Positions 28,608-58,990 of a stretch of 64,000 nt of DNA are shown here, piece by piece (position 1 is the stretch's first letter; each line of letters opens with the position of its first letter). A program made the position numbers and the translations under genes. Source of the DNA: Nymphaea colorata (Eukaryota > Streptophyta > Magnoliopsida > Nymphaeales > Nymphaeaceae); the NCBI RefSeq assembly GCF_008831285.2, contig NC_045139.1, positions 15,358,354 through 15,422,353 on the forward strand, given 5' to 3'. The notes under the pieces were generated by a model, which made no database searches, was not told the DNA's origin, and saw nothing but the letters and a program-made list of their open reading frames with translations.

Positions 28608-28757
28608 TTTCAAAGCCATGGAAGTGGAAAATGGAGTCATCCATTCTGTTAATCCTGCACCGACGCTTTCCTGGAGACCTGGTGGGCTGCAAATGGCTGG
28701 ACACCCGCACCCACGTTGACGTTACCCCACTTTGACATAGAACTGATCTTTTCTGTG
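28608..28757 (-). pseudogene. Relic of a FRO last exon
   Basis: On the minus strand this stretch aligns with the last exon of the three ferric reductase genes to its right. Shared blocks include TCAGTTCTATGTC, AAAGTGGGG, AACGT, CCACCAGG and TTTTCCACTTCCAT near the end. It would read KWGNV at first and then loses the conserved VCGPPGL, so the frame is broken by several changes. It lies about 1.05 kb beyond the stop of copy A. No other exons of this copy were found, so it is the remnant of a fourth, older FRO unit or a dispersed exon copy. Confidence 0.75.
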
Positions 28758-29797
28758 AACTAGTGAGCCCGAGAGGTTTGACGCACGGCACTTGGTCGGG
28801 TCAGTTGCGCGTCCGGTTGCTGGTTCGAATGGCATGGGCGCCCAAAGATCGATTCTAATTGATATCTGCTGAAAGGCAGTGCCAGTGAGGTGATTGGCAA
28901 AGATATGTTCTGGTCTTTATGTCAATAAAGCTATCCATTCTTGTGAAAGAACATGCTTGTGCCCTCAATTTCTTTTTTTCTGCGTATTGTGAACACCTTT
29001 CTATCATTGAACAAGTGTTTTACCTTGGCATAGTTCGTTCTGCTTTGCAACCGTTCTTTGGGGGATTATCTATACAAGAAACGTCCTTGGTAGTCCTGTG
29101 AGGCTGTGAGGTTCTATCTAGAAATTTCATTGATGGGAGGCCAGTGGATTAAATTATACGCTAGGTTTTAACAAAATTCTACCAAGTATTTCACTTTGTC
29201 TACAAGACCCATCAGGTTGGGATGGATTAACTTCTTGTATTCTTGGCGAGTTGGGTATTATAGTTTCTTGCACTGTTAATGGAGATTTTGAGCAGTCGGG
29301 GTTGCTCCCCGGTTGTGCAGCTGTTTGCACAGCTGAACAAGTCTGTGGAGAGCCAGATCCTGGGGTATCCTGTCACTAGGCCACGAGAACAAGAAAACAA
29401 GAGCAGTACAACATTTTAATTATGAAAGTAACCATTACAATATTCAGTCTAATCCCTGCACAAGTAAATGAAAAAGGAAGAATGAATAAATAAACTTATC
29501 CCCATAGAAATTTTTTCAACTTTAATAAGCTCGGGAACCTCACGGCCCTCCACATGGCCACATTTGAATAGCCACGTTACTTTAGTTTATTGCTAGTTAT
29601 CTCCTTCCTTCTGCGGAAGGGTAATTTATTACTAGTTATTGCCTTCCTTCTACGAAAAGGACCATGTACAGTCTTTTTCTTATTTTTGCTGCTTCCTTGC
29701 TTTGCAGGGGCATGAAGTTTGTTCAAGTCCAACTTGATGGTCTCGTATTTGAGTTTTACCGAACAATGAAGTTGGTAATTGCTGCACATGAACATAG
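28758..29797. other. Spacer between the FRO relic and FRO copy A
   Basis: No gene recognised. A GC-richer patch at 28765-28850 contains GGTTCGAAT, but it does not fold into a tRNA. Two imperfect ~40-base direct copies around CTAGTTAT and CCTTCCTTCT lie near 29585-29660. The last part is the 3' flank of copy A and resembles that of copies B and C from about 29715 on. Confidence 0.4.
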
Positions 29798-32700
29798 TTA
29801 AAATTCAAAGCTATAGCTATGGAAGTGGAAAACTGGGTTGCGTATGCTCTTGCAGTGTGCAGCAACACTGGCCTCGAGGCCTGGTGGACCGCAAACAACA
29901 ACCCCCACATCCACGTTCCCCCACTTTTCTGATATAGAACTGAAAATTTCTGCAAAAACAAAAGGAATACAAAATAATCAACCGTTGACATATGAAGAAT
30001 GTGTGACCTACCTGATAAGCAAACATGCTGATTTGAGATCTGTTGTGATGAATTTTAAGATCATAAATCTCTCTCTCGCTTTCTCTCTCTCTCTCTCTCT
30101 CTCAAACACACACACACTCTCTCTCTCTCTCACACACACACACATATGAAGTGCTGATAAATATACGCTATAAGCAGAAAGATTACCTTTGTAGTTAGGC
30201 CGTCGGCCATAATGAATAGATGCCAAGGAAAGAAGATCTTTTGATGCATCCTCGCCGTACTGAGTGGAGCCATTTAGTCCTGCAACATCCTCTTGCTGCT
30301 CATCATCGTCAACAAACTCCAAACCGCTGCTTTCCCACAGACGCCAGAGCATGATCACAGGCCCTCCAAACAAAATGATGCTTGCAAGCATGCAAATGAT
30401 GCACAGAAGTCCATTTAACCATGAGTTTGATATATTTAGCTTTCCTAAGACTAATTCTGCCACACCTTCAAGTGCTACAAAGCCAAATATCGAAAAGAAC
30501 ATGTAGATCCCCAACCATTTCATATTTCCTGAACCAACCATAGTGGACATGCTACTGCCTCTGGTGCTGAAAATGTATCTCACTATCTCACCTCCAGAAT
30601 TACAATTTCCACCTTCCTGCAATTTTGTTGAACATGGAATTAATGTCGTCTTCACGAGCACTATTTGTAATAGCTAAAACCCCTCAAATATAGGACATAC
30701 CTGTAGATTTCCTGATTCTCTTGTTACATATGCTTGAATTTCTATGTCTAAAACTTTGAGGGGGAATGCACATATCGATGTTACATTAATTTCAGAAAGA
30801 AGAGAAAGGTCCTCTGATCTTTTCACTGACCAAACCAACAAAATCTTCTTGGGAAGGCAATACTTTTCTTCCTTAGCTCCATGCAGCATGTCTTTCAGAA
30901 TGGAAAAGAAGGGAGAAATGCCACTGCCCCCAGCTACCAATATGAGATTTTCATACCTGTAGATGTAGAAAATGCATTTGAGTCATTCAGAAATCAAAGG
31001 CTATAGAAACTGATAAACTTCTGCAAAGCACCACCGTCATTCATTTCACTGCAAACAAATAAGGGGTTCATGATAATCGGCTGATGATATTCTACTTGAA
31101 CTGTCAGTGACAGGTTAGCAAATCATTTTTTAAATATAGTCTATGCATTGATTCCAACTCTGAAATGCAGACATTGATGAATCTCCACCATGATATATAT
31201 TTGGGTTCTATCTATATTCATTACTCCGTAAGTTACCCTGAGATTCCCATGATCTGCAAATGCTTTCTGAAATTTGCAGGACCAAAACATGACTCGAATG
31301 CTGACCTATTTTTCTTACTAATATTGCAGAAGTTCATCCAGAAATTCTGTTGTGTTTGAACTTTGAAGTGTAACCCGTGTTCATCTAAGCCCACTGAGAA
31401 GCCTTCAGTGGTTTTGACTTGGAACTGTATATGTCCTAATTATCAAAATTTCTACCATGATCTGCAGACTTGTTCAGTTTTTATCTAGATAAAAAATGAG
31501 ACTAAATGAAAAAACAGAGATGTTTGCTTCAACAGCCCAACAGAGATTTGATTAGATTGACAAACCATGACTCAGTACTACTGATCATGAATTTTTTTGT
31601 CATGTACAAATTGAGGGATTGGTTTGGGCCTGAAAAAAAGTTTTGGAATTAATTTCTTCATTTTTCTATAACTGTAAGGGCACCACCGAGAACATGGTCC
31701 TCATGTGATTAAATGCCTTCACCATTTGGAAAGAGATGTTGCTCCAATATGGCAGAGTTATATGCCAGAGCAGCCAATTACAAGCAATTTTCACTGCATT
31801 AAGCAGGGCATTACCATAAAAGAAAGTTTACCTCTCATCCACTTCACCAAATGCCATTGACAGCAAACAAGGGAGCATGAACAATAGAAACAGAGAGATG
31901 GGTCATATATTAACGTTGTCTCCATTGGTTGTCAGAGTTCTCTCAAAAGTTTTCCAAAATGAGATTTTTATTGGGAAAATCTTGGGAAACAATTGGAAGT
32001 TCTGAAGCTTCGAAAGATATAATGAATAATGGAAAAAGCTGTGAGCAGAAAACTTTTTAACAACAGTGGAGAAACAAAAAGAGAAGGCATCATATACTTA
32101 AAATACAAAAAGAGACTTCAAGAAAGACAATGGATAGTATCAGGAATCTCCTAGAGTAATACCTCAGAATTTTCATTTCTGGTAATATATTGAAGAAATT
32201 ATTACATTTTGATGGTATCAGTTGTTGGGGGCTCAAAGTGACAACAGTACAGTTATATAGCGACTGTGCAAGAAATAATGGGCTATGGTGCACATAAGTA
32301 GTTCCACATATCTCAATTTACCTACTTGCTCTATCGAGAATATTAGCCATGAAATTGCACCAGTAAATTAAGCTGCTCTATCTCATGTTAATTACATAGG
32401 ATCATAAGGATTTCAGCTTACTGGAGATGGTATAGCGACCTATACCCATATGGCCCCTCAACTGCTGCCCTTATTCCGGAAGCATGATTCCTAGCATTCA
32501 AGATTTCATCTCTTAATTTTTGTGTCCACTTCCCGGCAACTTTAATTAGAACAGTTAAATGCGACCTGCCATCTAGTGAACTAGAAGAAACACTAAAAGG
32601 ATGCCACTGGAACCACGACACTTCCCTTACTTGCAGGAAGACAAAGTTGAGAGGATTGTATGTCATGTCTAGAGGCAGCAAAAACCAACAGAAATCAAAT

Positions 32701-35700
32701 TAGAGCAAGTCATCATAGACAAATTGCATAAAGAGACGCATGTCAGCATGAAAAATTGAAAAATGTTGAAGCATTGAGATATTGATCAAGCCGAAGGGTT
32801 AATTCTTTCTACTCCACCTTATGGAACAGGTAGCAATAAATTAATATTTTTGCTTATGTTTTCTATTAATTCATTCATTTCTTCTATTTATCTATATGGT
32901 ATATACTGTCATAATATTGATCGAAAAGCAGTTTTAGTTGTCGTTTTTGGTGAGCAGTGTTTGAACGGAAGCAGTGAGTTTCTCACTGGCCTGTAATTCA
33001 GGATGTAATTGGAAAATGTTGAAGCATTGAGATATTGATCAAGACGAAGGGTTAATTCTTTCTACTCCACCTTATGGAACATGTGGCAATAAATTAATAT
33101 TTTTGCTTATGCTTTTATATTAATTCATTCCTTTCTTCTATTTTTCTATATGGTATATACTGTCATAATATTGAACGGAAGCAGTGAGTTTCTCACTGGC
33201 CTGTAATTCAGGATGTACTTGGAAAAGATCGACATCAAACACCATATATGCAGCACACTCTCCCATCTTCCACGATATATACAAGAAGGACACCTTTCCT
33301 GTCGGTCTTGCAATAGTTGACAAGTCCAATATCCCCCTAACATTTCCACCACTTCTAAGACAAATCGATGTTTTTTTTTTTTGTTTTAACCATGATTAGC
33401 AGCTTAGCCAGTATAGTGATATGCACAGACACATTAGATTGTTTAATTTGAAGAATTGATAGATCTAATCCTCTCTGTTAACTAATTCCTTCCTTCAATT
33501 AATATTAAACATAAATAACTGCAACTGTATGCGTATAATCAAGTACCAATTAAAAAAAAAAAGACCATCGATTAATAGAACAGAAGCCAAGCACATACAT
33601 ATTGTTTTTGTCATGACCAAAACCCAAGAGCAAATCATTTTTTAAGAAAAGATTTCTCTGTATTACTGTATACGATGGGTGCGTCGACACACACAAACAT
33701 AATTTGTTCTAACCCACACACATGATTTGTTCTGGTGTTGAGAAAAATAAGGGCAAAAGAACAATACTTTTGGGCTTTGATAAAGTCAACTCTACTGCTC
33801 CACATGGAAAGCATTTTGCTGAAAGCACATCCACAGTAGTCCTGGACTGCCAGAACCTCAGAAACCGATCCATGATAAACAAGAAAACAGAACCAGCAAT
33901 AATGTAGAACAGATTAATTCCAACATGCAATGCAGCAAAAATGATGAACACTGCATAGAGCTGATGGGTGTAGTAGAAGAGCTCGAAGCGCTTTCTTCTA
34001 ACTGGAGAAAGCGAAGTTAACCACATCAACAGCCCAGCCAAAAGGCTTACTGCCCCAGGACAATGGGCGATACCGTCAGTTTGCCACAGAATTATCTGCA
34101 AAATTTCCACAACATACAATATTAGGTGAACACAAAGCAGGATGACTTTAACATCTCTGAGACCACCACTAATGTGCAATATGAGTTATACGTAAGTGCC
34201 TTTTGGCAACAGTAACATACAGTTACAGTCCCATGAATCTGCCCAACCGTAACACATTCAATTATTCTTTAGAAATCGAAATCTAAACCTTTGAGACATT
34301 TAACTTTCCATGATACATGGCTCCAATTTCTAAAGTTGATTCCTTAAGCAGCCTTATGCACTAGTAAGCAAAAAAGGGAGGAGCTCAATGATCTATATCT
34401 AAACTGCAATAAGGCCACCTCTTCTGATTTGATCTGATATTCAACTTTCATGGTAAAACTAACATGTAAAAAAGACGGCAGAAAAGAAGACGAAAATTTT
34501 TAATCAGAACCAAATTGATGTCTGGTTTGAATTTGCCGACCTTGGCTTGCAGTGTGCCCTGGGCGATCCATATTAAGATAACAACCAGGCCATGCAAAGT
34601 GAGGAGGATCAACGTCACATGTCCCAACCATTTGTGATACCTGATTGCATGTTCAAATGGAATGTCTAAAACGCGGAGAAGAATGGAGCCTCTAGCTGTG
34701 GGTATAAGAAGAAACGCAACGCAAAAGAATCCAACTGCTCCAAGACGGCGACTGAAGCAGCGGCCAAAATGGACACTGCGAGCAAAGTTCGGTAATTCAA
34801 ACACCTGGACATAAATACAGCAGCCGCTACAAGAAAGTGGAAACAGAAAGGGACACTTGAAGATGTTAATGTGAATGTAAAAAAACTTTGAGGGGTTGGT
34901 GCAAAAGCTGCCCACACTAGCGGTCATGATTTAAATGTGCAGGATGCAGAGAAAACCATGCATTATGCAGATTGCATTCTCAGGAAGTTTACAACAGAAT
35001 TTGGACCTGTGATTGTCGAAGGTTCGGACAAGGGTGAGAAAAAGGAGATTGAAGGAGCAACTTACTTGAATAAGGTGAGAAAAGAAAGAACGCATGCATG
35101 CATATTTCAATTATTGCATTGCAATGAGGAGTATTTCGTGCACATTGCCCGGTTTGGCGCACTGGTTGGGTTCCTCTGTTCCGGCTAGAGTTGGTAGGAG
35201 GTCAGCCACCGATTCGAGTGGGATGAAGGTCGTGCGTCAATGGATGGGACGAGTGTATTAGCTGACATACACACTTTGCACCTACGTAACTGTGCAGGTA
35301 AGAGAAATGAAGGGCTTCTCAATATAAGCACTCAAATATAGACTATGAAATATAGACTATGATCTTGGGGATAGCTATAACAATTCTATCCACTCTTGAG
35401 TTTGGATGCGTTCGCGGGTGTAGGACCTTAGGTTCGAGTATTAAACCGATTTTGAATAACAACCCGACCCACTCCCGGGCTTGGGCTCTTGATTCGACGG
35501 ATCCCAATCCACCCCTTAATAGTTTTGGCTTCAACCCTCGAAAAGGTTAGAAATCATGACAATCATCTCATTGCTTTTATACTAGATTAAACTTTTGAAA
35601 TATTACAATAACTATAAAATGTTTCACTTTGTTAACTGGCTAGGAGAACTACATCCCAACTAATTAAATATAAGTGGTCAAATCTTTTATTGAAAAAGAA

Positions 35701-37931
35701 AATGACAATAGTTTTTTATTTTGCCCCAGCATGTGCTGGGCATTTATCATAAATGCCCACTCAACCAACCTTTTGGATGCTGCAGGTCATAAGTTTGGAA
35801 TGTTCGGGATCGGGTGCCCAAAGCATTAATTATTAAAGCCAATGCTTGGATTCTTAAATGGTTAAAATGCCCTCATGATAGAATGGCAAAGTAAGAAAAA
35901 TCATATTTTCAAAAAAGAAAAAGAAAAAAAAATACTAATTTTCTAAGTCACATGAGTGCTAGTAGCTTGGAGATAAAGTGTGACATGATAAAACGTGGGC
36001 ACGAGATACGGCGAATTAATGCCCCTAAATGGCTTCCTCCTTGTAGGAAGGAGTCCAAATGTATTTTAATAGCTTAATGGGCAGAGCTAGGAGCCATGGG
36101 CTCTCTTTAATTTTTAAAAAGTTAAAATATATTTATCATTTCAAGTTTTTAAACATTTTAATTTGGCCTCCCAATAATTTTGAAAAATTATATAGCAGTC
36201 CCTTTATTAGAAAAGGAACATGGGAGCCCCAGCATGGTTGCACACCCAAAATAATGTTTTGGATTAAAAACATCTTTTTGCTTCCAAAACTCCATTTTGG
36301 ACGTGTTTGGGAACATTGAAAATGACATTTTCAAAAAAACTTGTTTTTTGAAAACGCTATTTTACGAAGGGGTGAAAAAACTACCTTTCGAAACCTGGTT
36401 TTGTCATGCCCACCCAAACATATAAACAATTTTTTTAAGAAACTCGTTAAAATAGTAAGAGTAATTTTATGAGAAGAGGGGCTCTTTCTATCTCTCCTGT
36501 TGCACTTGCAAAGCAGACTACTCAGCGGAGTTGTCTCTCTCTCAACTGTTGCTCAGCCAACGCTCTACTGGCCATTGAATGGTAGTTGATTCTGCACCAC
36601 CAACATTCAATGGAAACAACAAAATAGAGAATCGTGGGAACGACATAGCAGTGCTGAGTGTTGTGGCTTCATCTAAACCCGCCCTTCTGATTGCCACAAT
36701 TTTTCTCTACAATTTTTCTTTTAGTTTACACGTAAATTTTAAAAGATTTCATTATTCTACATAAAAATTTAAAAAAATTATATTTCTGCTCCCCTTCATT
36801 AAAAATTCTATGTTACCAAAGGAAGAGACTTGCGTCTATTGGCCTACAAAAACATGCTCTGACAAGATTCACCTGTGTTCTCTAACAAATGACATGCATG
36901 CCTGCCTAGAGAAAACATGGATAATCAAATTATCAGTTCCTAAAGCCTGGAAATGTGGAGTCTTTCATTGGCTTTGTTTTAAGACATGGCTGTCGAGGTT
37001 CCCTAGTGCACACCCTGAAAAATTATACCTATGAGTATGCAATGATAAAAAAAAAAAACTTTTTAAAAGCATAAAGAAATATAAAAATGTTAAAAAGTAT
37101 AAAATTTATTGTTATCAGCAGGAAAAGGAAAAGAAGGGAGCAAGGAATTTACAGGTCCGTCCCACTTGGAGCAAGAAACGGTCCAGAGGTATAGTCTCTT
37201 ATCATATAAGCAGGCAGTGCCCAAAGGATATAAGCTGCAAATGCAATAATTCCGATCAGTTCTGCAGCAGAAACCACACCAAGAGGCCCCTTTACGATGA
37301 CCGGATGGGTCCATAATACCCGGAAAGATGGCAGCCTCTTCTTCTTTCTCCTGCAACCAATTTAATTTGTTCATGAGCTCTTCTGCAATGCCAAAGAAAC
37401 GCATAAACTAAGAAGCACAGTTTTAGATCTTGAAGGAAGCTTATAAGCAGTAATGCCTCATACTCATTGTACTCCGTGGGAAAGAAGGCGAGATAGGCAG
37501 CCCCCAGCAGCGCAATAGCCAGAACAGGGGCGCTGAACAGGAGAAAAGGAACCCCTGCCAATGGAGGAAATTGAAAGAAAGAAAGAGAATAAATATTGCG
37601 AAGCTAAGTTGTTCTTAACTAATTTGGTGTGGTAATTGCTTCCCTTTCGTTCCTGCCTCTGATGATTAAAAGAGTCATTATCTTCCCGGATCTCACCTGA
37701 TGAACCATATACAGTGGTGTTGGTCATGGAAATCCATTTGGCGAGCAGTTTTCCCATGAAGTCCGTGGGAAGGAGGAAGACGAAGACGACCCATGTGAGG
37801 AAGATGGCTACCATAAGAAGCTTTAAGCTGCAGCTCAGGCAAACCTTGAGGCATTGAGCAGATCTGAAGAGAAGCCCATCGTCTCCGCCATCTTCAGCAA
37901 GGAATGGTTCCCAAGGAGAGTTTCCCTCCAT
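29798..37931 (-). CDS. Ferric reduction oxidase (FRO), copy A
   Basis: Nine exons on the minus strand: 37697-37931, 37464-37554, 37153-37350, 34541-34775, 33768-34095, 32422-32668, 30701-30956, 30187-30616, 29798-29949; 2172 nt, 723 aa, normal for plant FRO. The protein has an N-terminal membrane helix and GKLLAKWIS. The ferric reductase core has probable heme histidines H222/H236 ([13 protein letters not shown]) and H297/H310 ([13 protein letters not shown]). The FAD site is WHPFSVSS (H385). The NADPH loop is AGGSGISPF (~453-461), and VCGPPGL lies near C693. It reduces Fe(III) (or Cu(II)) across a membrane using NADPH. Recalled similarity is closest to the FRO6/FRO7 side of the family; membrane location is not resolvable. 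Start set by alignment with B and C; an in-frame ATG six codons upstream (37949) is also open. Odd: Ser replaces Ile in GGIG. Confidence 0.93.
30064..30146. repeat. Compound CT/CA microsatellite in FRO-A intron 8
   Basis: Runs of TC and CA alternate, ending about 40 bases from the exon 8 donor. The matching introns of copies B and C lack it. Confidence 0.85.
32760..33226. repeat. ~250-bp tandem duplication in FRO-A intron 5
   Basis: Two copies start near 32761 and 33014 with AAATGTTGAAGCATTGAG and share TTCTTTCTACTCCACC and the end CACTGGCCTGTAATTCAGG. The second copy lacks about 45-55 bases before that end. Copies B and C have only one unit, so the duplication is specific to A. Confidence 0.85.
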
Positions 37932-39089
37932 GGAAGTTTGGAAATACATAGGACTTCGATGAGCTTGGAGACAAACTTATGAAGAAACAGTGGTAGAACA
38001 TCGAGAGAGAGTGGGAGATTCGAACGTGAAAAACACGCCGACTTTGACGACTGTCTGGTGGTGTTTGGTTCGTTCTGGGTGCCGGGCCTCTGCTGACAAT
38101 TATGTAAGTTAACCATCAAAGTTCTTTACTGAGATAAAAGAAAGAGCACAAAAGTTCAACGTGGAGTTTCATGGACCTTGAAGTCGATAGTTCCAAGACC
38201 TTGATATTTATTAGGCCTTTTACAAACGACAGCTCCTTGTTTCAAGGAATAGTTGCGCGAGATACGTTACAAGCATTAACGGCATAATAATTCTTCTTTG
38301 ATATCTTTAACTATTAAATCCATCGTAATTTTCATTGCCATGAATGTTGCCATGCATCATAATCTTCAATCTGTAAGCATCATCTCCAATGCCTTCATTT
38401 ACGCTGCTCTATTTTGAAATGACACCATAATATATTCACTTTTGATCTTAAACCTAAGACATAAACCGACCTTGCTGGGTTTAAAATTAGGCTTCACCAG
38501 AATTTGCCTTAATTGGATGAGACCACTGTAGGGAAGTAGATTGAAAGTGAATGCTTCACAGATTCTATTCGTATAGAAGCACCCAACTCTGTGAAATAAG
38601 CAGGTGTTCTAATTTCCAGAGTAATCATAGGAGCATCTTTACGAGAAGAACTGCACCACCAACGTATCTCTCTCTCTACCTACCTAAAGTCTAAACAGTT
38701 GCAGACCACAAAGGAGGCAGCAGCCAGTACTGCTACAAGACCTTTGAATGGCAGATGAAACTATTCCGGGATTTTTTGTTGACCATCTGATGGGTTCCGC
38801 TTCCTCCTTAATCTTTTGTTATGTTCACGCTGCCATTTTTTTTTTTGTGTGTGTGTGGCTTTCAGCACAAGGGAGGCCCATGTGCTGTCAAATCGCTCCC
38901 CAACTGCCTGCCGGTGCATGGGAAGGACAGGAAATGGGGCCTCTAGTATCACCCCACCGGCGGTCGGTCTGCTGTGCTGATGCCGCTGCCTGGCCAGTCG
39001 TTGGCAGCCAGCGGTGGCGTGGGTTTATCTGAAGGAAAATCGGGGTCCCATTGCCACATCGATGGGGGAGATGGCAGGCAAAGGCAGGT
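37932..39089. other. Upstream region of FRO copy A
   Basis: Promoter and leader of copy A, then spacer. Between 38748 and 39089 the sequence becomes GC-richer and joins the repeated block that begins the B unit. No gene recognised. Confidence 0.45.
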
Positions 39090-39449
39090 CTCGATCAGGG
39101 CCGCGCGTTGCATCCCACCACGGGGATCCGTGGCGATGGTGGTGGACATCGACTATTGCTCGTCCCAGACCCACTGGTAGGCGGAATGCTCACTGGTGGG
39201 GTAGATTCTGGTGTCTTCAAGCATGGGTGCCACCCTATGTCTTAGAAAGGGGAACGCCAGAAGCTTTCTGGTACCGTTCTTCCGTCTGCCACCTGGTTGT
39301 AACCTACGCCAGGTCTTGGGTTTCCACCGGCATCCTTAGGTGCCAGTGCTGCGCTCCCATGACGGAGTCTTGTCTGCCTCTTTGCTCTCCGACGCTGGAT
39401 ACATCTTTGCTTCTTTGCTGCCAGACGATGGGTTTCAATTATATCTGAT

Positions 39450-39945
39450 ACTCTTCATATCCTTTTGAAAGATTTTTGTTAATTTGCAGCAATTTCTCCT
39501 TGGTTGCATATTTTTTTTCTTAAATTCAACTAAAAATTCATTCATTTCTTGCATGATACGCTCCTGGCCTTCAGGACTCTTCCTCGGATCATGCATTATC
39601 ACGATCAATATGGAAAAACAAACCAAATCTCTGATACCAAGTTGATACAAAAAGAAAGAAGGGTTTCTCTTCTAAGCCACGATCAATGCCTACCTAATCT
39701 AGGGATAACAGAAAGAAATGCAAAATAGAATATAAAATGTGAAAAGAAAACATAAATAACCATTATGGTTTTTTTTTTCTTATTCACTCAAAAACTGATT
39801 ATAAATGAGGCGTAAGTGCCTTTAAATAGGGTAAAAGCGGATTTAAGAATCTCTAATCAAATAAAAGAAAATAACAAATAAAAATCCAAAATATGAAGAT
39901 AAATCTGGTTGCTCTGCTCCTGCGTCACATTTTCAGCTGAACAGC
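39450..39945 (-). mobile_element. LTR-retrotransposon fossil, B unit
   Basis: Read on the minus strand, an LTR-like segment (about 39945 down to 39643, ending TATCA) is followed two bases on by TTGGTATCAGAG (39629-39640), the initiator-Met tRNA primer-binding site typical of plant LTR elements. Internal sequence follows to about 39450 and may continue to 39090. No second LTR or full polyprotein region is present, so it is a fragment and broken. It was there before the B/C duplication because the C unit carries the same piece. Confidence 0.65.
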
Positions 39946-40037
39946 GAGCTGCCAATCTCATCAAGCTCCAAAAAATGACGACCTCATTTAAGTTTTATCT
40001 AACAATGCAATGCATTGATAATTGCACATCAACATAG

Positions 40038-43000: not shown

Positions 43001-44865
43001 GAGACTCATACCAACATGAAAAACAAAAAAATGTTGAAGCATTATGGTATTGATCAAGAGAAAATGCTACTTCTGTTCCACCTTATGGACCGCATAGCAA
43101 CAAATTTTTTTATATATGCTTTCGTCTATTAATCCATTCCTTTCTTTCTTTCATGTATGTGTACTTACTGTCATAATATTAAGGAAAATAAATTTTACTT
43201 GTCGTATTTAATATAGAGCACTGTTTCAAAGGAAGCTATGAGTCTGTCATTTGCCTGTAATTGAGGATGAACTAGGAAAAGATCGATATCAAATACTCCC
43301 ACATATACATGTGCTTACTTTCTCATCTTCCACGTTATATAGAAATTAAGTTGATGGTTCTTGTGTCTTACTGCAATGATAAGTCCAATATCCCTAACAT
43401 TTGCACCACTTCTAGATCAAATCTATGTTTTCTGTTCTTTTAATCATGAGTAGCATCTTAGTCAGGAGTGATCTAGACAGCCACATGAGAACGTTTAATT
43501 TGAAAAAACAGATCTAATAATCTCCTTTAACTCATTCCTTCAATTAACATTAAACATGAAGGACTGAATTGACATGATCAATTGCGCATGTAGACTAGTC
43601 TTGGACCAATTTGGAAAAGGAAAACGTTGATTAGTAGAAGAGAAAGCTAAGCATATATATATATGATTTTTGTCATGAAAAAACCCAAGCATATATAATT
43701 TGTTCTACTGTTAGAGAAAAAAAAGCAGTACTTTTGGGCTTTGATAAAGTCAATTCTACTGCTCCACATGGAAAGCATTTCACTGAAAGCACAGCCACAG
43801 TAGCCCTTGACTGCCAGAACCTGAGAAACCGATTCATAATAAACAAAAAAACTGAACCAGCGATGATGTAGAACAGATTAATTCCAACATGTAATGCAGC
43901 GAAAATGATGAAGACTGCATAGAGCTGATGGGTGTAGTAAAAGAGCTCGAAGCACTTTCTTCTCACTGGAGAAACCGAAGTAACCCACATCAATAGCCCA
44001 GCCAAAAGGCTTATAACCCCCGGAAAATGAGAGACATCGTCTGTTTTCCACTCGATTATCTGAAAAATTTTCCATACACAATGTTAGATGAACACAATGC
44101 CGGATAACTTTAATATCTCTGAGAGCACAAAGTAGTAGCAAATAATACATATATTAATCACACTTTAGAAATCAAAAGTTTAAGCTTTTGAGATCTGATT
44201 TTAAAGGCTGCCTGCACGGCCAAAAGTCTTTAAAGTCGATACTGTATAAGCAGTTCATGATGTATATGTAGGGCTGGGTGGGCTTTACAAAGTCAGGTTA
44301 GGGTTGACACGAAGTTCGTGACGGTGGCCCAAGCCCGGCCCTCTTAATTATTGTGTTGGGTCCAACCGTCAACTTTGTACCTATCGAGTACCTATTTCGA
44401 TGACCACCCATATTTAAAACCTTTAATATTTTATATTTTAATATCTCATAAACCTTTGTCTATTTGCTAAGAGTTTCTAAGAGTGCTACTTGCAACATAT
44501 GATGAGTTTCAAACGATGCCATGAGCAACACATGAAGAGTTTTTAAGGCAGTTACGCGGATACACCAAAAGTTTTTAAGTGAGCCGATTGCTAGTATCAT
44601 ATGCGGAGAGAGAGAAAACGAAATAAAAAAAGTGAAAAGATGAGTTATAGAAATCCCCAATACCCGGCCGAGTGGATTTTTTTAAACGGACTGGCCCAAG
44701 TGTTAAATGACCAGCATAAACCTGGCCCATAATGTTAAATGACCACCATAAGCCTGGCCCATAAGTACTCAGCCCCTTAGGCACCCTTATATATACGACA
44801 TTTTACGCACCCTAGCATACTGGTTGGATCCAACCTTTTTACTTATTTAGATTTTTGTGCCCCTC

Positions 44866-44898
<33 letters not shown>

Positions 44899-47206: not shown

Positions 47207-48741
47207 GGAAGCGTGGAAAAATTTAGCACCTGTATAAGCTTGATAAGAAAGTCAGATGCTGCTTAATTTATAACAATAATGATATTCGTATTTTGAGATT
47301 TTAATGCGAAGAAAAGTCAGCATATTTTCAGCACCTTGAACAATTTTCACTTAGTAAAAAATCTACCTCATAAATATTGACCTCAAAGAGAGACTGTAAT
47401 GTGCATACCTCCTTAGCTGAGACAATTGAGCAAAGTTTTGCAGCCGACTAATTATCTCAGCCGACAGGCTGTGTCGATCTCCTTACGAGCACCACATGAT
47501 CACTTCGCAGACTACAAAAAGGAAGTAGGAGTACAAAAGAGCACAACAGCGATGAAACTCTCCACTAGCTTTCATATACACATAATTTAAAAGCAGTGGC
47601 GCAATATTCCACCAAACTTTTATATATGCCAATAACATAATACAAATCTACCTACTGAATGGTCAAAATTGAAAAGTTGTTCTTAAAAAGTACCGTTAAT
47701 TCTTGCTAAAAACACTGTAACTGCACTATATACTGTCGTTAAACCTTTATAACAATTGTTCATTAGTAACAGTTTTTTAACTTTTAACTATGCAGCAATA
47801 TTCAATACAACTTGAATTATTGTTATTAGTAGTAGTATTAGTTTATTATTATATAAACACTGAAATTAAATGCTGACTACATATTGAAAGACCGGGTCCC
47901 AACCAAGCGCAATCATAAATGATTGTTCAAATTCGAACACCCACCCAACGAAACTAAAAGGTGAGATGTACTTTGTCAAGAGGTTGATCTTACAAGAGAG
48001 TGCGAAAGTGAGTTGCGTGCACTGGGGTGTTGCACATAAAATATGTGCACCAAAAAAAAAAAAAAAGAGATTTTATGGATTTTTGAAAAAAAAAAAGTGT
48101 TTTTGAATGATGTATATAACCAGTTTGGTTCACTTTGAGGAATCACTTATTCATCTAATCGGGGGGCCAATGTTAGGAGAGATTCAACAATTATAGAGGC
48201 ACCATAAATCCATAATGGGGTCAGCATACCATGGTCCATTTTGATCTTCACAATCTGGTGGGAGCTGTGGTATTTTTATCTTGGCGAGACACATCGCCAT
48301 GTAAGGAATTTTTTTTATTGGAGAACCAAAATATAGTTTCAAATTTTTAACATGCGCTCAATATAATTTTTCAAAATTTTTATATAAGTTAAAATTAAAA
48401 AATTACATGATTTTTTTTATTAAAAAAAAAATTGAGGGGGCCAATAGCCCCTGCCACCCCCTCCCCCTACTTCTAAATAGATTCTATATGACAGCCGCTT
48501 GGCTTCAACCAAATGTTGTTAAAAACTTTATATACATAACGTCCATTATTTGAGACTTGGCTCAGCATTCGGTCCTGCATTCCTACCTTTCTAACACCTT
48601 GTTGGGATTTATATATATTAAACTAAAAACTTCTATATTTAAAGTTTTTAAAATCTGAAGGGCAACCAAGGCTCCTGTGCCCTTGGGCGTTGATATCTTC
48701 TTTTCGTAATATTTGATTTGATTGTTTAAGTTTCAGCTCTC
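47207..48741. other. Upstream region of FRO copy B
   Basis: Promoter and flank of copy B, AT-rich, without a recognised gene. Long parts resemble the flank of copy C (56550-58990), for example TTCTAACACCTTGTTG near 48590 and 58660. The C-side flank has several hundred extra bases. Confidence 0.5.
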
Positions 48742-49107
48742 TCGATCCGGGCCGCGCTTTGCCTCCCACCACGGGGATCCGTGGCGATGGTGGAGGACAT
48801 CGACTACTGCTCGTCCCAGACCCACTGGTAGGCGGAATGCTCACTGGTGGGGTAGATTCTGGTGTCTTCAAGCATGGGTGCCACCCTATGTCTGAGAACG
48901 GGGTACGCCAAAAGCTTTCTGGTACCGCTCTTCCGTCTGCAACCTGGTTATAACCTACGCCAGGTCTTGGGTTTCCACCGGCATGCGTACATGCCAATCC
49001 TGCGCTCCCATGTTGGAGTCATGTCTGCCTCTTTGCTCTCCGACGCTGGATACATCTCTGCTTCTTTGCTGCCAGACGATGGGTTTCAATTGTATCTGAT
49101 ACTCTTC

Positions 49108-49565
49108 CTATCCTTTTGAAAGATTTTTCTTAATTTGCAGGTTTTTTCTTCTTGGTTGCATATTTTTTTTCTTAAATTCAACTAAAAATTCATTCATTTC
49201 TTGCATGATATGCTCCTGGCCTTCAGGACTCTTCCTCGGATTATGCATTATCACGATCAATAGGGAAAAACAAACCAAATCTCTGATACCAAGTTGATAC
49301 AATAAGAAAGAAGGATTTCTCTTCTAAGCCACGACCAATGCCTACCTAAAGAAAAGCATAATATACTATAAAAGGTGAAAAGAAAACATAAATAACCATT
49401 ATGGTTTTTTTTTATTCACTCAAAAACTGGTTATAAATGAGGCCTGAATGCCTTTGAATGGGATAAAAACGGACAGAATCAAATGAAAGAAAATAACAAA
49501 TGAAAATCCTAAATATGAAAATAAATCTGGTTGCTCTGCTCCTGCGTCACATTTTCAGCTGAACA
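49108..49565 (-). mobile_element. LTR-retrotransposon fossil, C unit
   Basis: Copy of the fragment in the B unit: LTR-like segment about 49565 down to 49295, primer-binding site TTGGTATCAGAG at 49281-49292 (minus strand), then internal sequence. It is incomplete and broken and arose by host tandem duplication, not by a new insertion. Confidence 0.65.
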
Positions 49566-52500
49566 GCAAGCTGCCAATCTCATCAAGCTCCAAAAAATGA
49601 TTACCCCATTTAAGTTTTAGCTAACAATGCAATGCATTGATAATTGCACATCAACATAGTTAAAATTCAAAGCTGAGGCTATGGAAGTGGAAAACGGGTT
49701 GGCATATGTTTCTGCACTCTGCAGCAACGCTCGACTCAAGGCCTGGTGGACCACAGACGAGAACCCCCACATCCGATTTCCCCCACTTTTCTGATGTAGA
49801 ACTGAAAATTTCTGCCAGAAACAATGGGAATAGAAAAGAATCAGATAATAAATATGATCTCAAGAATGTCACCCACCTGGCTCGCAGACATTTGATCCTT
49901 TGAGTTCTGTTGTAGTGAATTTTAAGATCATAATTAAACATCTCCTTCTCTCACTAGATTCCTATGTGCCTGACATGAAGGGGCTGTTTGGCTTGGCAAG
50001 AAGGATACTTTGTTATCGTTCCAAGTCAAGCATGTGCATCAAAAATTGTGGCAAATTCGTGGAACCTTTGTGAAAGTATCTAATCTAATAAATCTATCAT
50101 TTGTCTTGGAGCAGAAGATACATGAAATACTAACAAACTGACCAATATGAGTAGTTTACCAAAAAAACGGATTACCTTTATAGTTTGGCCTTTGGCCATA
50201 ATGAGTAGATACCAAGGCAAGAAGATCATTTGATGCGTCTTCGCAGTACTCAGTGGGGCTATTTAGTCCTGCAGCATCATTGTTCTCCTTATGGACATCA
50301 AACTCCAACTCGCTGCTTTCCTGCCGACGCCAAAGCATGATAACAGGCCCTCCAAACAAGATGACGCTTGCGAGCATGCAAATGATGCATACAACTGCGT
50401 TTAACCATGAGATTGATATATTTATCTTTTCCAAGACGAATTCCGCCAGACCTTCAAGTGCTATAAACCCAAATATCGAAGAGAACATGTAGATCCCCAA
50501 CCATTTCGCACTCCATGAACCAACCAAAGTTGACATGCTATTACCAGTGCTGGGAAAGTAATTCACTATCTCCCCTCCGGAATTATAATTTCCATCTTCC
50601 TGTATTAGTTTGTAGATCATGGAACTAAGCTCATCATCCCAAATGCTACTTTTAATAGTCACAATTTAAATATGAAACATACCAGTAGAATTCCTGATTC
50701 TTGTGTTACATAAGCTTGAATTTCTATATTTAAAACTTTGGGAAAGAATGCGCTTATGGATGTTGTATTCATGTCAGAAAGAAGAGAAATCTCCTTTGAT
50801 CTTTTCACTGACCAAACAAGCAAAATCTTTCTGGGTAGGCAATCCTTTTCTTCCTGAGCTCTATGAATGATATCCTTCAGAACGGCAATGAAAGGCGAGA
50901 TGCCTATGCCTCCAGCTACCAATACGAGATTTTCGTATCTGCGAAGGTAGAAACTGCACTTTGAGTCGTTCATAAAAGCAAGACTGATAGAAACAAATTA
51001 AACTTCTGCATGTATGTACCATCGTAATAGAACATATGTAATTATAGCCAAGAATGTGTTTTAGTTCAACTTCCAGTAATAGGTTACTGAATGATTTTAG
51101 AATATAGTCTATGCACTGATATCCAAACTCTGAAATGCCGATACTGATGAATCTCTGACACCATATTAATTGGTCGGGTAGACGATTAATTATCTCTGCG
51201 TATAGTCTTTACTGGGCAGTTACTCATCGTAAGATTCACATGATCTACAAGTGTTTTCTGAAATGTGCAGGACTGGAACATAGTTTTGAATACTGCTAAC
51301 CCATTTGACTTGTTAATGCTGCAAAAGTTATTCTCAATCTGTTGCGTGTTAGGTTTAACCCGTGTTCATCGAAGCCAATTAAGCAGCCAGCTACAAGCAA
51401 TTTCTACTACATTAAGTATGGTATTACCAAAATAGATAACACCAAGTTTACCTATCATACCACTTCAGCTAATGCAATTGATAGAAGACAGGGAAGCATG
51501 AAAAGTAGAAACGATGACCAGATGGATCATTCCTCAATGTTGTCTCCGTAGTTAAGAGAACTTTCCCAATACTTGATTTTTCTAGTTGGGAAAATCTTGG
51601 TGAAACATTATCAGAAATTCTAAATCTTCAAAAGATATGAAGAATAATGGAAAAATCAATGAGTGGAAAATCTTTTAAAACACAATACAGTAATGTCTCA
51701 GAATAATAATATTGAATGAATTATGTTATTTTTAATGGTTTCACTCGTTGGGCTCAAGACGAAAACAATATATTGATATGTAAACTATGCAAGAACTGTT
51801 GGGCAGCAATGCATGTAATTGATTCTACACAGCTAAACTTAGTCATTTGAGCTATTGAGAAAATAAAACACGAGATATTGCACCAATAAATTAAGCTGCT
51901 GCTATCTTAGAGTAACTAGATAGGATCATAGAGATGTGAGCTTACTGCAGATGGTACAGCGATCTACACCCATATGATCCCTCAACTGCTGCACTTATTC
52001 TGGACTTAGCATGATTCTTAGCATTCATGATTGTGTCTCTTAATTTTGTGTCCACCTCCCGGAAACTTTAATTAGAACTGTTAACTGCAACCTGCCATCT
52101 AGTGGGCTAGAACATACACTAAAAGGATGCCATTGGAACCAGGACACCTCCCTTACTTGTAGGAAAACGAAGCTGAGAGGATTGTATCTCATATCTAGAG
52201 GCAGCAAAACCAACAGAAATTAAATTAAGACAACTCTTCATAGACACATCGCATCAAGAGACTCATACCAACATGAAAAACAGAAAAATGTTGAAGCATT
52301 ATGGTATTGATCAAAACAAAAGGCTACTTCTATTCCACCTTATCGACTTCACAGCAACAAATATTTTTATATATGCTTTCCTCTATTAATCCATTCCTTT
52401 ATTTCTTTCATGTATATGGTGTACTTACTGCCATAATATTAAGGAACATAAACTTTACTTGTCATATTTAATATTGAGCGCCGTTTCAAAGGAAGCTATG

Positions 52501-53674
52501 AGTCTGTCACTTGCCTGTAATCGAGGATGAACTAGGAAAAGATCGATATCAAATATTCCCACATATGCATGTGCTTACTTTCTCATCTTCCACTTTATAC
52601 AGAAATTATGTTGATAGTTCCTGTGTCTTACACTCTCACTGCAATGATAAGTCCAATGTCCCTAACATTTACACTTGTAGAACAAATGTATGTTTTTTGT
52701 TATTTTAATCATGATTAGAAGAATCTTAATCAGAAGCGATCTAGTTGGTTCATGTGTCTTACTGCAATGATAAGTCCAGTATCCCTAACATTTGCACCAC
52801 TTCTAGATCAAATCTATGTTTTTTGTTGTTTTAATCATAATTAGCATCTAGTCAGGAGTGATCTAGACAGCCACATGAGAACGTTTAATTTGAAAAAATA
52901 GATCTAATAATCTCCATTAACTCATTCCTTCAATTAATATTAAACATGAAGGAGTGAATTGACATGATCAATTGCGCATGTAAACTAGTCTTGGTCCAAT
53001 TTGGAAAAGAAAAACTTTGATTAGTAGAAGAGAAAGCTAAGCATATATATATGATTTTTGTCATGAAAAGGACCGTAGCATATATAATTTGTTCTACTGT
53101 TACAGAAGTTAAATTGAAGGCATGTAAAAGAGCAGTACTTTTGGGCTTTGATAAAGTCAATTCTACTGCTCCACATGGAAAGCATTTCACTGAAAGCACA
53201 TCCACGGTAGCCCTTGACTGCCAGAATCTGAGAAACCGATCCATAATAAACAAAAAAACTGAACCAGCAATGATGTAGAACAGATTAATTCCAACATGTA
53301 ATGCAGCGAAAATGATGAAGACTACATAGAGCTGATGGGTGTAGTAAAAGAGCTCGAAGCTCTTTCTTCTCACTCGAGAAACCGAAGTGACCCACATCAA
53401 TAGCCCAGCCAAAAGGCTTATAACCCCAGGAAAATGAGAGACATCGTCAGTTTTCCACTCAATTATCTGCAAAATTTTCCATACACAATATTAGATGAAC
53501 ACAACGTAGTATAACTTTAACATCTCTGACACCATAAAGTGGTAGCAAATAATACATATATTAATCACAATTTAGTAATAAAAAATTTAAGCTTTTGAGA
53601 TCTGATTTTAAAGGTTGTGTGCACGCTAAAATTCTTTAAAGTCGATACTGGATAAGCAGTTCATGATTGATATG

Positions 53675-54128
53675 TAGGGCTGGGCATAGGCTAGGGCAGG
53701 CCAGCCCAAGGCTTTACAAAGTCAGGTTAGGGCTGGCTCGAAGTTCTTGCCAGTGGCCCAAACCCGGCCCTCTTAATTATTGGGCTGGTTTCAACCTTCA
53801 ACTTTATACCCGTCAGTTACTTAGTTGGATGAACCCCCATATTGAAATCCTTAATATTTCATATCTCAAAAACCTTTTATCGGCATGCTAAGAGTTTGTA
53901 ACGGTGCTATTGGCAACACATGATGAGTTCCAAAGGATGCCATCAATGAATGACACATGAAATGAATGACACATGAAGAGGGTTTTCCAGGCATTTATCA
54001 TGATGTGTACCCGATTCGGGTATTGAGTGCCCAAACCCTATATATATATATCCTCAATGCGCAGGCCGGTGAATGTTTTTAATCGGACCGGCCCAGGTGT
54101 TAAATGACAAGATGAAGCCCAGCCCTTA
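53675..54128. mobile_element. hAT-like element in FRO-C intron 4
   Basis: Left end TAGGGCTGGGCATAG; right end reverse-complemented TAAGGGCTGGGCTTC. The flanks GATATG and TATATG are only a weak target-duplication match. It matches the copy in FRO-B intron 4 and has no transposase frame. Confidence 0.55.
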
Positions 54129-54418
54129 TATATATGACATGGGCTTTCCTCTCTTTATTATTATCGGTTGGATCCAACCTTTTTACTTATTTATATTTTT
54201 TTGCCCTTCAATTATTTATTTATTTATTTATATATAGTTTCCATCAATCAACTTACTATATATTAAAGAGGTCTTTTTTTTTTAATCAAATAAAAATTTT
54301 TCTAACTTCGCCACAGACTTCCCGTTTTAAGTCATGGTGACAGTAAGAAACCAAAAAGAAAACCAGAAAAATCAGATGCAAACGAATGTCTGGTTTTTAC
54401 TGACCTTTTCTGGCAACA

Positions 54419-55295
54419 AACCAAGGCGAGCCCAGGATATGATAAAAACCACGCCGTGCAAAGTGAAGAGAATCAACGTCACATGTCCGAGCCGCCTGTG
54501 ATACCTTATTGCTTGCTCGAATGGAATGTCTAAAACGCGGAGAAGAAGAGAACCTCTAGCTGTGGGTATAAGAAGAAAAGCAGTGCAGTAGAATCCAACA
54601 GCTGCCAGACGGCGACCGACGTAGGATGCCATAAGATCACTGCAACGAAAGTTCAGTAACTCAAACACAGACATAATTTGCAAGACCATCATATAACTTG
54701 TAGTGCAATACAGTGACTAGAGTATTATACAAGCCGCAGAAGAAGCCATTATACGCACACAGGAAGTTTAGAGAGACTTTGAGCCTCAGATGCTCCAACG
54801 CTAAAACGACGGAAAAAAATTAATAATAATTTTCTGCCGAGGACTATGGCCCAAGCACTAAGTCCCTTCCATTTGTAGTTGGATGAGAACTGTTTTCGAT
54901 CTAAGGAGTCTTTTAATTAAGCTTGTTTAGTTGACAGTCAAAGGCAAATTTATAAAAAAATGTGGCGGTTTGAATGACAGTTGAAAACCAACTTTGGCCT
55001 TGGGAACATCATTTCAGGCAGATTTGGACGATCATCCAAATTGGACTCTTCAAAATCCTGCTAGTTTTGACGTACTTATGAATTAAAAGGCCTAGAAAAT
55101 CCGACTTCACATATGTTTTTTAAGGCAAAGATCCAAAGTAGATTTCAGAAACTGAGTTTTTAATCAAGTTACAGTCTTTAGAAAAGAGTTTTGTTTATGG
55201 GGTGCCATCTAAACGCCCCTTGGTTTTGACAGGAACGCTGAAAGGTTATAATTCACACAAAGCACCCATTTTTGTATTGCCATTGAAATACGAGA
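54419..55295. repeat. 877-bp tract identical to FRO-B (C side)
   Basis: Partner of 45086-45962. The left border is marked by changes just before AACCAAGGCG and the right border by GAGAACCTAAG in place of GAGACCCTACG. Confidence 0.85.
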
Positions 55296-56549
55296 ACCTA
55301 AGATCGTGAGGTGGCCACTTCTTATGCTAGAATCTCTCTCTAATTGGTACTTGCAAAAGCACGGCCTTGTACCCATCGGCCTACAAAACTAATGCTTTCA
55401 AGAATATTCATCCGTCGTCTTCCTGTAAGCGTGTTTCGTACTACAGTAGTAGTGGATTTTTCCTAATTCAGCAACTCCATCTAATCGGAACTAAATGCAT
55501 CCAACATGGAGGATTTGTTACATGCATGGGATCCTAAGCCTGGAAATGTAAGTCTTTCAGTTTCAGGTGCCCGGAAGGAAAAATCTTACTGCCCAAGGTA
55601 GGAAGCTGGGTTCAGACGGGACAAACTTTTGTGTTTCTCCCTTCAACGAACAACAGTGCCTACCACCCTTTAAACCAGTGGTTTACTAACCTGTCAGCTC
55701 AATCAACTATGTTATGTTCATTTGCAAATGGAGACCATGGTGCAGGTTATCAGCAGGAAAGAAAAAAGAAAAGAGGGGTGTATGAAATTTACAGGCCGGC
55801 TCTTGGAGCAAGAAACGGTCCGGAGGTAATGTCTCTTATTATATATGCAGGCAGCGCCCAAAGGATATAAACGGCAAATGCAATTATCCCGATCAGTTCT
55901 GCAGCAGAAACCACACCAAGAGGCCCGTTTACGATGACCGGATGAGTCCACAAGGTCCGGGAGGATGACGTACGCTTCTTCTTTCTCCTGCAACCAATTT
56001 AATCAGTTCATGAGCTCTTCTGCAATGCCAAAAAAAGCGTGAGCTGAGAAGCACAGTTATAGACAAGATCTTGAAGGAAGCTCATAAGCGGTGAGGCCTC
56101 ATGCCAATCGTACTCCGTGGGAAAAAAAGAGAGGTACGCAGCCCCCAGAAGCGCAGTAGCCAGAACGGGGGCGCTGAACAGAAGAAAAGGAATCCCTGCC
56201 AATGGAGGAAATTAAAAGAGAGCAAGATAATAAATATTGCTGAAGCTAAGTTATTCTTCTCCAGCCTCCGATCTGATGATTAAAGAATCATATTATCTCC
56301 AGGGTCCTTGCCTGATATACCATATACTGTAGTGTTGGTTATCGAAATCCATTGTGCGAGCAGTTTTCCCATGAAGTGGGTGGGGAGGAGGAAGATGAAG
56401 GCAACCCAGGTGACAAAGATGGCTGCCATAAGAAGCTTTAGCCCATAGCTCAGGAATAACTTCAGGCCTTCAGCGGACTTGAGGAGAAACCCACCTTCTG
56501 ATCCGCCATCTTCAGCAAGGAGTGGTTGCCAAGCAGAGTTTTCGTCCAT

Positions 56550-58990
56550 GGAAGCGTGGAAAAGATTAGGACCTGGATAAGCTTGGAAAGAAAGCCAGAA
56601 GCTGCTTAATTTATAACAATAATTATCTTCGTATTTTGAGATCTTAATGCAATGAAAAGTCAGCATATTTTCAGCACCTTGAACAATTTTCACCTAGTAA
56701 AAAATCTACCTCATATATATTAACCTCAAAGAGAGACTGTAATATGCATACCTCCTTAGCTGAGACAACTGAGCAAAGTTTCGCAGAACCACATCTTGAA
56801 ATCACTTCACCGACTAATTATCTCAGCGGACCGGCCGTCCCACACAATCTATGGTGGTACTGAGCTATGTCGATCTTCTTACGAGCACCAAATGATGACT
56901 TCGCAGACTCAAAAACAAAAAGGAAGTAGGAAGTGCTAAAGAGCACAACAGCGATGAAACTCTCCACTAGCTTTTATATAGACATAATCTAAAAGCAGTG
57001 GTCCAATATTCTACCAACCAACTTTTATATATGCATATAAAACAATACAAACCTGCCTACCGAATGGCCAAAAATTGAAATGTTGTTGTTAAAAAGTACT
57101 GTTAATTGTTGCTCAAAACACTGTAATTGTTAAGCCTATATAACGATTGTTCATCAGTAACAGTTTTTTAACTTTTAACTACCTAGCAATTAAATGCACT
57201 GTATACTGAAACGAAATTAAATGCTTGCAGAAATTAAATGCTTGCAGGATTCTGACGACAACATATAAAAGGACCGGGTCCCAACAAACTGCAATAATAA
57301 ATGGTTGTCCAAATTCCAACACCCTCCCAACTAACCTTTGTACTCTGTCAAATGGGTGGCTCCTTATTAGTTGGGTGCATTGGGGGTGGTGCCATGGCGA
57401 TTTTTGCCGATTTTGAAAAAAAAAAAAACAAAGTCTTTTTTGAATTTTTGATTTTTTCGTATTTTTTCTATGCCCTGACAATGACTCTCGAGTATTATTA
57501 TTATGATCACTACACCCCAATACACAATACTTTTGTGCATTGGATAATGTATATAACCAGTTTTCATTGGATGTGTTGGTCATAATTGGCAAGTTTGTAC
57601 TATTCACTTTGAGGAATCTGTCTTTTTTTATTTGTTTTTTTGTTTCAAAAAAGTTTTTTTTATTAGTCATGGCATTTTTTGTCATTATTAAAATAAAGTT
57701 GATATTTCATACATAAAGGCGTCGTACATAACCAGATTCAGAGGATAGACACTTTCTAAGTCATTGCCGATTCTTTTAGACAGATACTTTGGAAAAATTG
57801 CTCGTAAAGAGGTCATTATACCATTATTTCACCAAATACCAATTTTGCTCTTTGTGAAATGACATAAGATGAGGGGGTGAAATCGATTCCTTTCATGTAA
57901 CAAAGGGGCTCGGATTAGGGGTGGAGATAGGATTTTTTTTAAGGGCAGTCGGAACAATTCAACCTTTAAATTTGGGTAGGATCAAACTGAATTCAAATTC
58001 AAATATACATGAGGCAACTAAAAGTTTTTAATTTTTTCAATGTAATTTTTTTTTCAGTTAGCTGGGGCAGGGTCATGGCCTAGGTGGCCCTCCCCCTCCC
58101 TCCGCCCAGGGCTTGGATAAGCCTGCGCATAGGGCTGAGTACATGTTGGGGTGTCAAGTACTCGACCTGTAATAAGCCAAACCCGAGTTGCAAGTGGAAC
58201 TGATAAGTTGATAAAAGTATTTGTTTTGGGCATGTGTTTCACAAAGCAAATAATGGTGCTCCAGGGACGTGGGTCTCCCTTGCCTTTCAATTTTTAGTTG
58301 AGTTGGTCTCCAAGGGACGTGGGTCTCCAGGGACATGGAAACTAGGAGTGAACAACGAGTCGGGTCGAGCTCGAGCTCAACACGTAACTATCGAGTCGAG
58401 TTCGTTGCTTACGTTGAGCACGAATTGAGTCGAGCTCGGGGTTTCATTATTCAAGCTAAGCTTGAGCTGGCTGAACTCGGGCTCGACTCGACTTGTGTTC
58501 ACTCTGCCAGCCCCCTTGCTTCCCCCTCATGAAAAGGACAATTTGCACTACATAAAGATTTTTTATATGGCAGCTGCTTGGCTTCAACCAAATGTTGTTA
58601 GAAACGTTGTATACATAAAGTCCATTATTTGAGACTGCATCCGGTCCTGCATTCCTACCTTTCTAACACCTTGTTGTGGGGTTTTAGCGGAATGTTACAA
58701 GTGTGATTTTCTCTCTCTTCTAAAAACGGTGTATTGCAAACTGGTGTTGAGTCAAAGATTTTTTTGTCCCAAGGGTCAAATTATACTTTCAAAATTTTAA
58801 TAGGGATCGAAGTAGAAATTTTTTAAATTTATATATATATTAAACTAAAATTTTTTAGATTTACATATAAATTTTTAAAATTTTTAAAATATGAGGGGAG
58901 ACCAAGGCCTATGCCGGCCACCCCTTTAACATCTTTTTTTGCTTTTCTTCATAATATTTCATTCATTTGATTGTTTAGGTTTCAGCTCTC
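56550..58990. other. Upstream region of FRO copy C
   Basis: Promoter and flank of copy C without a recognised gene. At 58342-58506 a short GC-richer block has inverted ends (AGGAGTGAACA left; AGAGTGAACAC from the right) and GTCGAGCTCGAG-type words, likely a small hAT-type MITE, although no target duplication is visible. Confidence 0.45.

Follow-up and report, generated by a model that had tools for sequence, protein, structure and literature searches.

What happens to a family of FRO genes that has multiplied at one locus? The stretch of Nymphaea colorata DNA analysed here (64,000 nt, C2:15358354-15422353; referred to as the window) belongs to an assembly of 407,766,735 bases in 783 contigs that was searched as a whole, and the host is probably an early-branching flowering plant. 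A first-pass annotation had described three FRO genes in tandem in one orientation, and had read the array as birth, conversion and decay side by side. We recovered the three genes, A, B and C, all on the minus strand, and our results support the wider reading as well: birth by tandem duplication, probable conversion between B and C, and decay in a relic and probably in C are found together at this locus. It is very probable that the array belongs to a FRO cluster that grew by stepwise duplication, with A, B, C and a further gene, D, on the same strand, and whose history, reconstructed in part, takes in a B/C repeat unit, an 877-bp identical tract, loss of frame in C and the relic.

Genes of the array and their relatives

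To fix the exon limits of A, B and C, we compared the three copies and required agreement of GT/AG sites and phase. Gene A (29798-37931, minus strand) has nine exons (37931-37697, 37554-37464, 37350-37153, 34775-34541, 34095-33768, 32668-32422, 30956-30701, 30616-30187 and 29949-29798), and 8 of its 8 introns are bounded by GT/AG. Its coding sequence of 2172 nt specifies 723 aa with no internal stop; an in-frame ATG at 37949, upstream of the start at 37931, would add six residues if used. Gene B (40038-47206, minus strand) is likewise divided into nine exons (47206-46969, 46852-46762, 46644-46450, 45306-45072, 44059-43732, 42937-42688, 41308-41053, 40969-40546 and 40189-40038; GT/AG at 8/8 introns) and is open over 2169 nt and 722 aa, so that both of the open readings first reported, of 723 and 722 codons, were reproduced without an internal stop. 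The nine exons of gene C (49660-56549, minus strand) were placed as in B: 56549-56312, 56195-56105, 55987-55793, 54639-54405, 53466-53139, 52194-51946, 50938-50683, 50599-50176 and 49811-49660. Coding parts thus cover 29798-56549, and with a relic from 28614 and similarity upstream of C to about 58676 the position first given to the array was right.

The intron phases 1,2,2,0,1,2,0,1 are common to A, B, D and a fifth gene, E. C has the same phases through exon 5 and deviates from exon 6 onward because one base is missing, so that the earlier description of three copies with nine exons and identical phases stood for the exons, and for the phases of A, B and the first part of C only. A, B, D and E have GT donors at all eight introns, C at six of eight. 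Intron 5 of A contains an internal direct repeat (32754-33226) of ~180 bp at 94% identity and a 56-bp piece at 98%.

A whole-protein Pfam scan of A, B and D gave matches above the cut-off to Ferric_reduct, FAD_binding_8 and NAD_binding_6 in each. By eye, GH...LHG and YTHQLY...LHVG can be found in all five aligned proteins, A to E, and we take the haem-binding histidines to be those of these two motifs. Plant FRO proteins require four conserved histidines for two haems, according to passages of PMC3968747. A and D would be membrane metalloreductases that pass electrons from NADPH to FAD, across two haems and on to chelated Fe(III) or Cu(II).

D is an open FRO gene of nine exons at C2:15485555-15490991, ~63 kb beyond the right end of the window and on the same strand as A, B and C, and the cluster accordingly has four members and a relic. 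E, an open FRO relative also with nine exons, lies on contig C3. Two FRO-type genes, F and G (L018 and L019), are found on C4 at about 18.152-18.157 and 18.172-18.177 Mb, head to head and about 14 kb apart; they form a different subgroup (GPYGPPSTDFLR and GPYGSPSIDYLR). Among the best 16 candidates listed from a whole-genome search with the Ferric_reduct profile, 13 fell on A to G. The remaining three, on C7 and on C2 at 22.4 and 24.3 Mb, were matched by NAD_binding_6 too, and these loci look like NADPH oxidases. NAD_binding_6 alone was matched at three more places (C3 at 11.25 Mb, C5 and C11).

The Ks of 0.92 between D and E is near the paralogue peak of ~0.9 given for Nymphaea colorata in passages of PMC7015852. 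When open stretches of at least 50 aa were compared between 40 kb of C3 and 164 kb of C2 (E 1e-6), matches were seen at the FRO genes only. We set aside the idea that the C2 cluster and E are a whole-genome-duplication pair, as a comparison of shared neighbours over 40 kb and 164 kb rests on too little DNA.

Order of the duplications

B and C are identical at 664 of 721 amino-acid positions, A and B at 558/720 and A and C at 547/719; comparisons with D and E gave 429/716 (A-D), 407/716 (A-E) and 463/725 (D-E). Synonymous divergence was 0.118 for B-C, 0.341 for A-B and 0.349 for A-C. The other pairs gave 0.854 (A-D), 0.922 (D-E), 1.000 (B-D), 1.101 (C-D), 1.073 (A-E), 1.211 (B-E) and 1.244 (C-E), the larger of these being near saturation. 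The seven FRO rows A to G, all from this genome, gave a tree (319 columns) of the form ((D,E),(A,(B,C))) against F and G, with support of 88/92 for A,B,C, 99/97 for B,C, 81/73 for D,E and 100/100 for F,G. Two of the four inner branches reached the strong mark, and the A,B,C fork, at 88 bootstrap, lay under 95. Separate old clades for A, B and C, the outcome that the first-pass annotation had named as contrary to a local expansion, were not found among the genes of this genome. Six residues near the C terminus that are present in D and E are missing from A, B and C and from the aligned partial F and G, a pattern consistent with a split that separates A,B,C from D,E.

A, B and C show the features of tandem genes made by duplication in that they form one clade, share one orientation and have collinear introns; duplicated flanks are seen in B and C only. 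The similarity of A to B and C extends ~50 bp past the stop and ~40 bp ahead of the ATG at 37931. Over 1.4-2.4 kb of upstream DNA, we detected no similarity of A, D and E to each other or to B and C, whereas B and C share theirs; because its upstream DNA is unlike that of the other four genes, A may be regulated differently from B and C. Judged from these comparisons, A is probably an older copy than the B/C pair. Its lineage would have split from the B/C ancestor prior to the B/C duplication, and the duplications may have come about by unequal crossing-over.

The relic beyond A (28614-28746, minus strand) corresponds to the last exon of a FRO gene; aligned with exon 9 of A, it shows 67% identity across 137 columns (E 1e-6 within the window). 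It reaches a local score of 41, whereas the highest score among 410 background stretches, drawn from both strands of positions 1-28.2 kb, was 14, so that the relic and the location first assigned to it were both confirmed. We regard it as decayed because its FRO-like pieces are split among three different frames.

Constraint on B and C and the change in the NADPH motif

Selection was followed along the branches by parsimony counts of dN/dS, with 117 ambiguous codons set aside. Branch B, with 19 synonymous and 15 replacement changes (dN/dS about 0.24), is below neutral (p 4e-5), and the branch of the B/C ancestor (42.5 synonymous, 26.5 replacement; about 0.19) is constrained. The highest value, about 0.52, was found on branch A (21.8 synonymous, 37.2 replacement; Fisher p 0.008 against the B/C ancestor). 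A simpler count with A as the sole outgroup assigned 17 synonymous and 11 replacement changes to B and 17 and 22 to C, with 40 codons ambiguous. A stands alone against a state shared by B, C, D and E at 30 columns, of which 2 are gaps; one such change turns GGIGI, beside the nucleotide-binding region, into GGSGI. From the branch values and these private columns, A is the faster-changing copy and B/C a constrained pair with an odd motif.

That motif is the NADPH-binding GPYG, which is GSYG in B owing to a serine codon, TCA, at Ser436 (42717-42719, minus strand). C has the same change (51975-51977), and A has CCA for Pro435 (32451-32453). A, D, E, F and G retain GPYG, and GSYG occurs in B and C only. 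The proline is also present, as GPFG or GPYG, at the matching site in all five solved sequences that were aligned (among 13 matched), and according to passages of PMC6099960 GPYG serves cofactor binding in OsFRO1 and OsFRO7. A literature search for the matching proline of NOX2 found nothing. Residues at 18 columns follow the same division, with A, D and E in agreement and B and C sharing another residue; they include the GPYG proline and a serine in HPFSVSS. The first-pass annotation had suggested that a local expansion could spread metal-reductase activity over tissues or metals; GSYG argues against taking B simply as a second standard reductase. Because A, D, E, F, G and the five aligned solved relatives all retain the proline, B, although open, may not be a standard reductase, and in view of this motif we propose that B is a weakened or altered one.

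Could B already be dead as a reductase despite its open frame, leaving the function to A and D? The confinement of GSYG to B and C, and a cofactor-binding motif whose proline the other copies and the five aligned solved sequences retain, would fit such a loss, but the constraint on B and on the B/C ancestor is not what a dead protein would long keep, B still reaches 75.2 bits with NAD_binding_6 (75.9 for A), and more columns deviate in A than in B. Nor is A an obvious standard enzyme, given its dN/dS and its private columns. We consider the death of B possible but somewhat doubtful, and favour a weakened or altered reductase. If B is active despite GSYG, or is constrained for some other reason, it would offer a natural test of how far the NADPH motif can vary in FRO and NOX enzymes.

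C had been called broken, and in this assembly it is: in 2169 columns aligned with B there is one gap, a single missing base in an A-run of exon 6 (about 52044-52048), which ends the reading after 413 codons, ahead of the NAD-binding domain. Read in the frame of B, C contains no further in-frame stops. GC replaces GT at its first two donors, after exons 1 and 2. Branch C, with 22 synonymous and 24 replacement changes, has a dN/dS of about 0.33, below neutral (p 2e-4); loss of constraint was not seen on this branch, which does not differ from branch B (Fisher p 0.51). Since C is constrained and has a single break, either the loss of frame is young or the sequence is in error at the break.

If the base at this short A-run was lost in sequencing or assembly, C would be a third open copy with two GC-AG introns. 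The first GC donor of C, CAG|GCAAGG, is similar to working GC donors. The constraint on C and its otherwise open frame agree with an intact gene, and the likely source assembly was based on PacBio RSII data, according to passages of PMC7015852; the same passages, however, describe polishing with Arrow and, using Illumina reads, Pilon, and GC donors are found at 2 of 8 introns in C, while A, B, D and E have none at any of their 8 introns. We think an intact C rather unlikely and would class it as a young pseudogene.

A more far-reaching reading is that the B/C lineage is a FRO offshoot with a changed NADPH motif (GPYG to GSYG, HPFSVSS to HPFSVCSS) that was under purifying selection before and after the B/C split. 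Its product would be a FRO-type protein held under constraint that uses its electron donor in an altered way or has a non-standard role, and that is partly homogenised by conversion between B and C. We put this forward as speculation that is probably wrong.

The B/C units and comparable loci

B and C lie in a direct duplication of 39089-48604 (about 9.5 kb) and 48740-58676 (about 9.9 kb), which align in BLAST blocks that are 84-94% identical, with insertions between them. Over 39122-47780, the units differ at 656 of 8069 ungapped columns (8.1%), and each has private insertions of some hundred bases. About 450 bp in intron 6 of B (42151-42600) is mostly missing from C and is 79% identical over 170 bp to a neighbouring locus (L014); it is probably a dispersed repeat. 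Upstream of C there is ~1.2 kb (57331-58560) compared with ~0.5 kb at B, and since pieces of it match L013, L014, L016 and L027 at 71-80%, these are probably repeat insertions.

Within the units, 877 bp of B (45086-45962) is identical to 54419-55295 in C. This probable conversion tract takes in the greater part of exon 4 together with about 650 bp of intron 3, and divergence outside it is 9.1% (7192 columns). In 10,000 permutations of the differences the longest identical run was 202 bp, and permutation of 50-bp blocks agreed (p 1e-4). Gene conversion between B and C over these 877 bp is well supported by such comparisons, with collapse in the assembly as the main alternative, and it may have arisen through mispairing of the close repeats. 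The first-pass annotation had placed conversion in the array as a whole, and its claim gained support for B and C only. At the 113 coding sites where B differs from C, A sides with B 56 times and with C 42 times and differs from both at 15, and a runs test on the coding sequences showed a deficit of runs at no better than p 0.13; we therefore dropped conversion of A with B or C.

Exact identity over 877 bp within copies that are 9% diverged could mean that the reads of one copy were used twice, but we consider it very unlikely that the identity is a local collapse or that B and C are alleles or haplotigs put in tandem by the assembler, the error that the first-pass annotation had warned of, given the divergence outside the tract, the private insertions in each unit, a window with no N anywhere, and the presence of A, a separate and older tandem copy.

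FRO genes in tandem are known from Arabidopsis, FRO6 and FRO7 being one such pair. FRO4 and FRO5 are another, described in passages of PMC3968747, and resemble the Nymphaea genes in their tandem arrangement and high similarity. The Nymphaea array differs in having three copies, a relic and, further along, a fourth copy, and in its probable conversion tract, its frame break and the GSYG of two copies. Over the whole protein, A, B and C presumably resemble FRO6/FRO7-type metalloreductases. The order Ferric_reduct, FAD_binding_8, NAD_binding_6 fits this type; A, B and C are set apart from D and E by the six residues near the C terminus, and the GPYG site is followed by HES in D and E, YRS in A and CRP or CRS in B and C.

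Twelve distinct solved sequences match A at E 0.001, the best of them labelled cytochrome b-245 heavy chain (NOX2), dual oxidase 1, NADPH oxidase 5 and 'putative ferric reductase'. By sequence, the NADPH oxidases (NOX2, DUOX1, NOX5) share the FAD/NADPH core and partly the haem part; in contrast, their EF-hand or peroxidase part is unmatched in A, B and D (Pfam). FRO proteins deliver electrons to metal chelates, NADPH oxidases to oxygen.

A search of one literature library on FRO tandems and the FRO family, water-lily FRO and ferric-reductase conversion, the last of which led only to work on Candida, found no report of this array. The locus appears to be a further example of known tandem FRO growth, ordinary but well preserved. 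Its value is that the steps of a tandem family can be viewed at a single locus: an old relic, an old copy with unrelated upstream DNA, a recent copy, conversion and loss of frame.

Elsewhere in the window, a 155-aa open stretch at 62887-63354 (plus strand) had no Pfam match at E 0.001. A 301-aa open stretch at 2936-3841 (plus strand) has a RING-H2 domain (zf-RING_2), and after it comes a tandem repeat with a 179-bp unit in 2.9 copies (3846-4380); an open stretch at 23547-24221 (plus strand) matches the triose-phosphate transporter family (TPT). Part of an ethylene receptor gene lies at 11786-13476 (minus strand), with ETR1_N and GAF domains in 12433-13476 and an open stretch at 11786-12205 that by eye is histidine-kinase-like.
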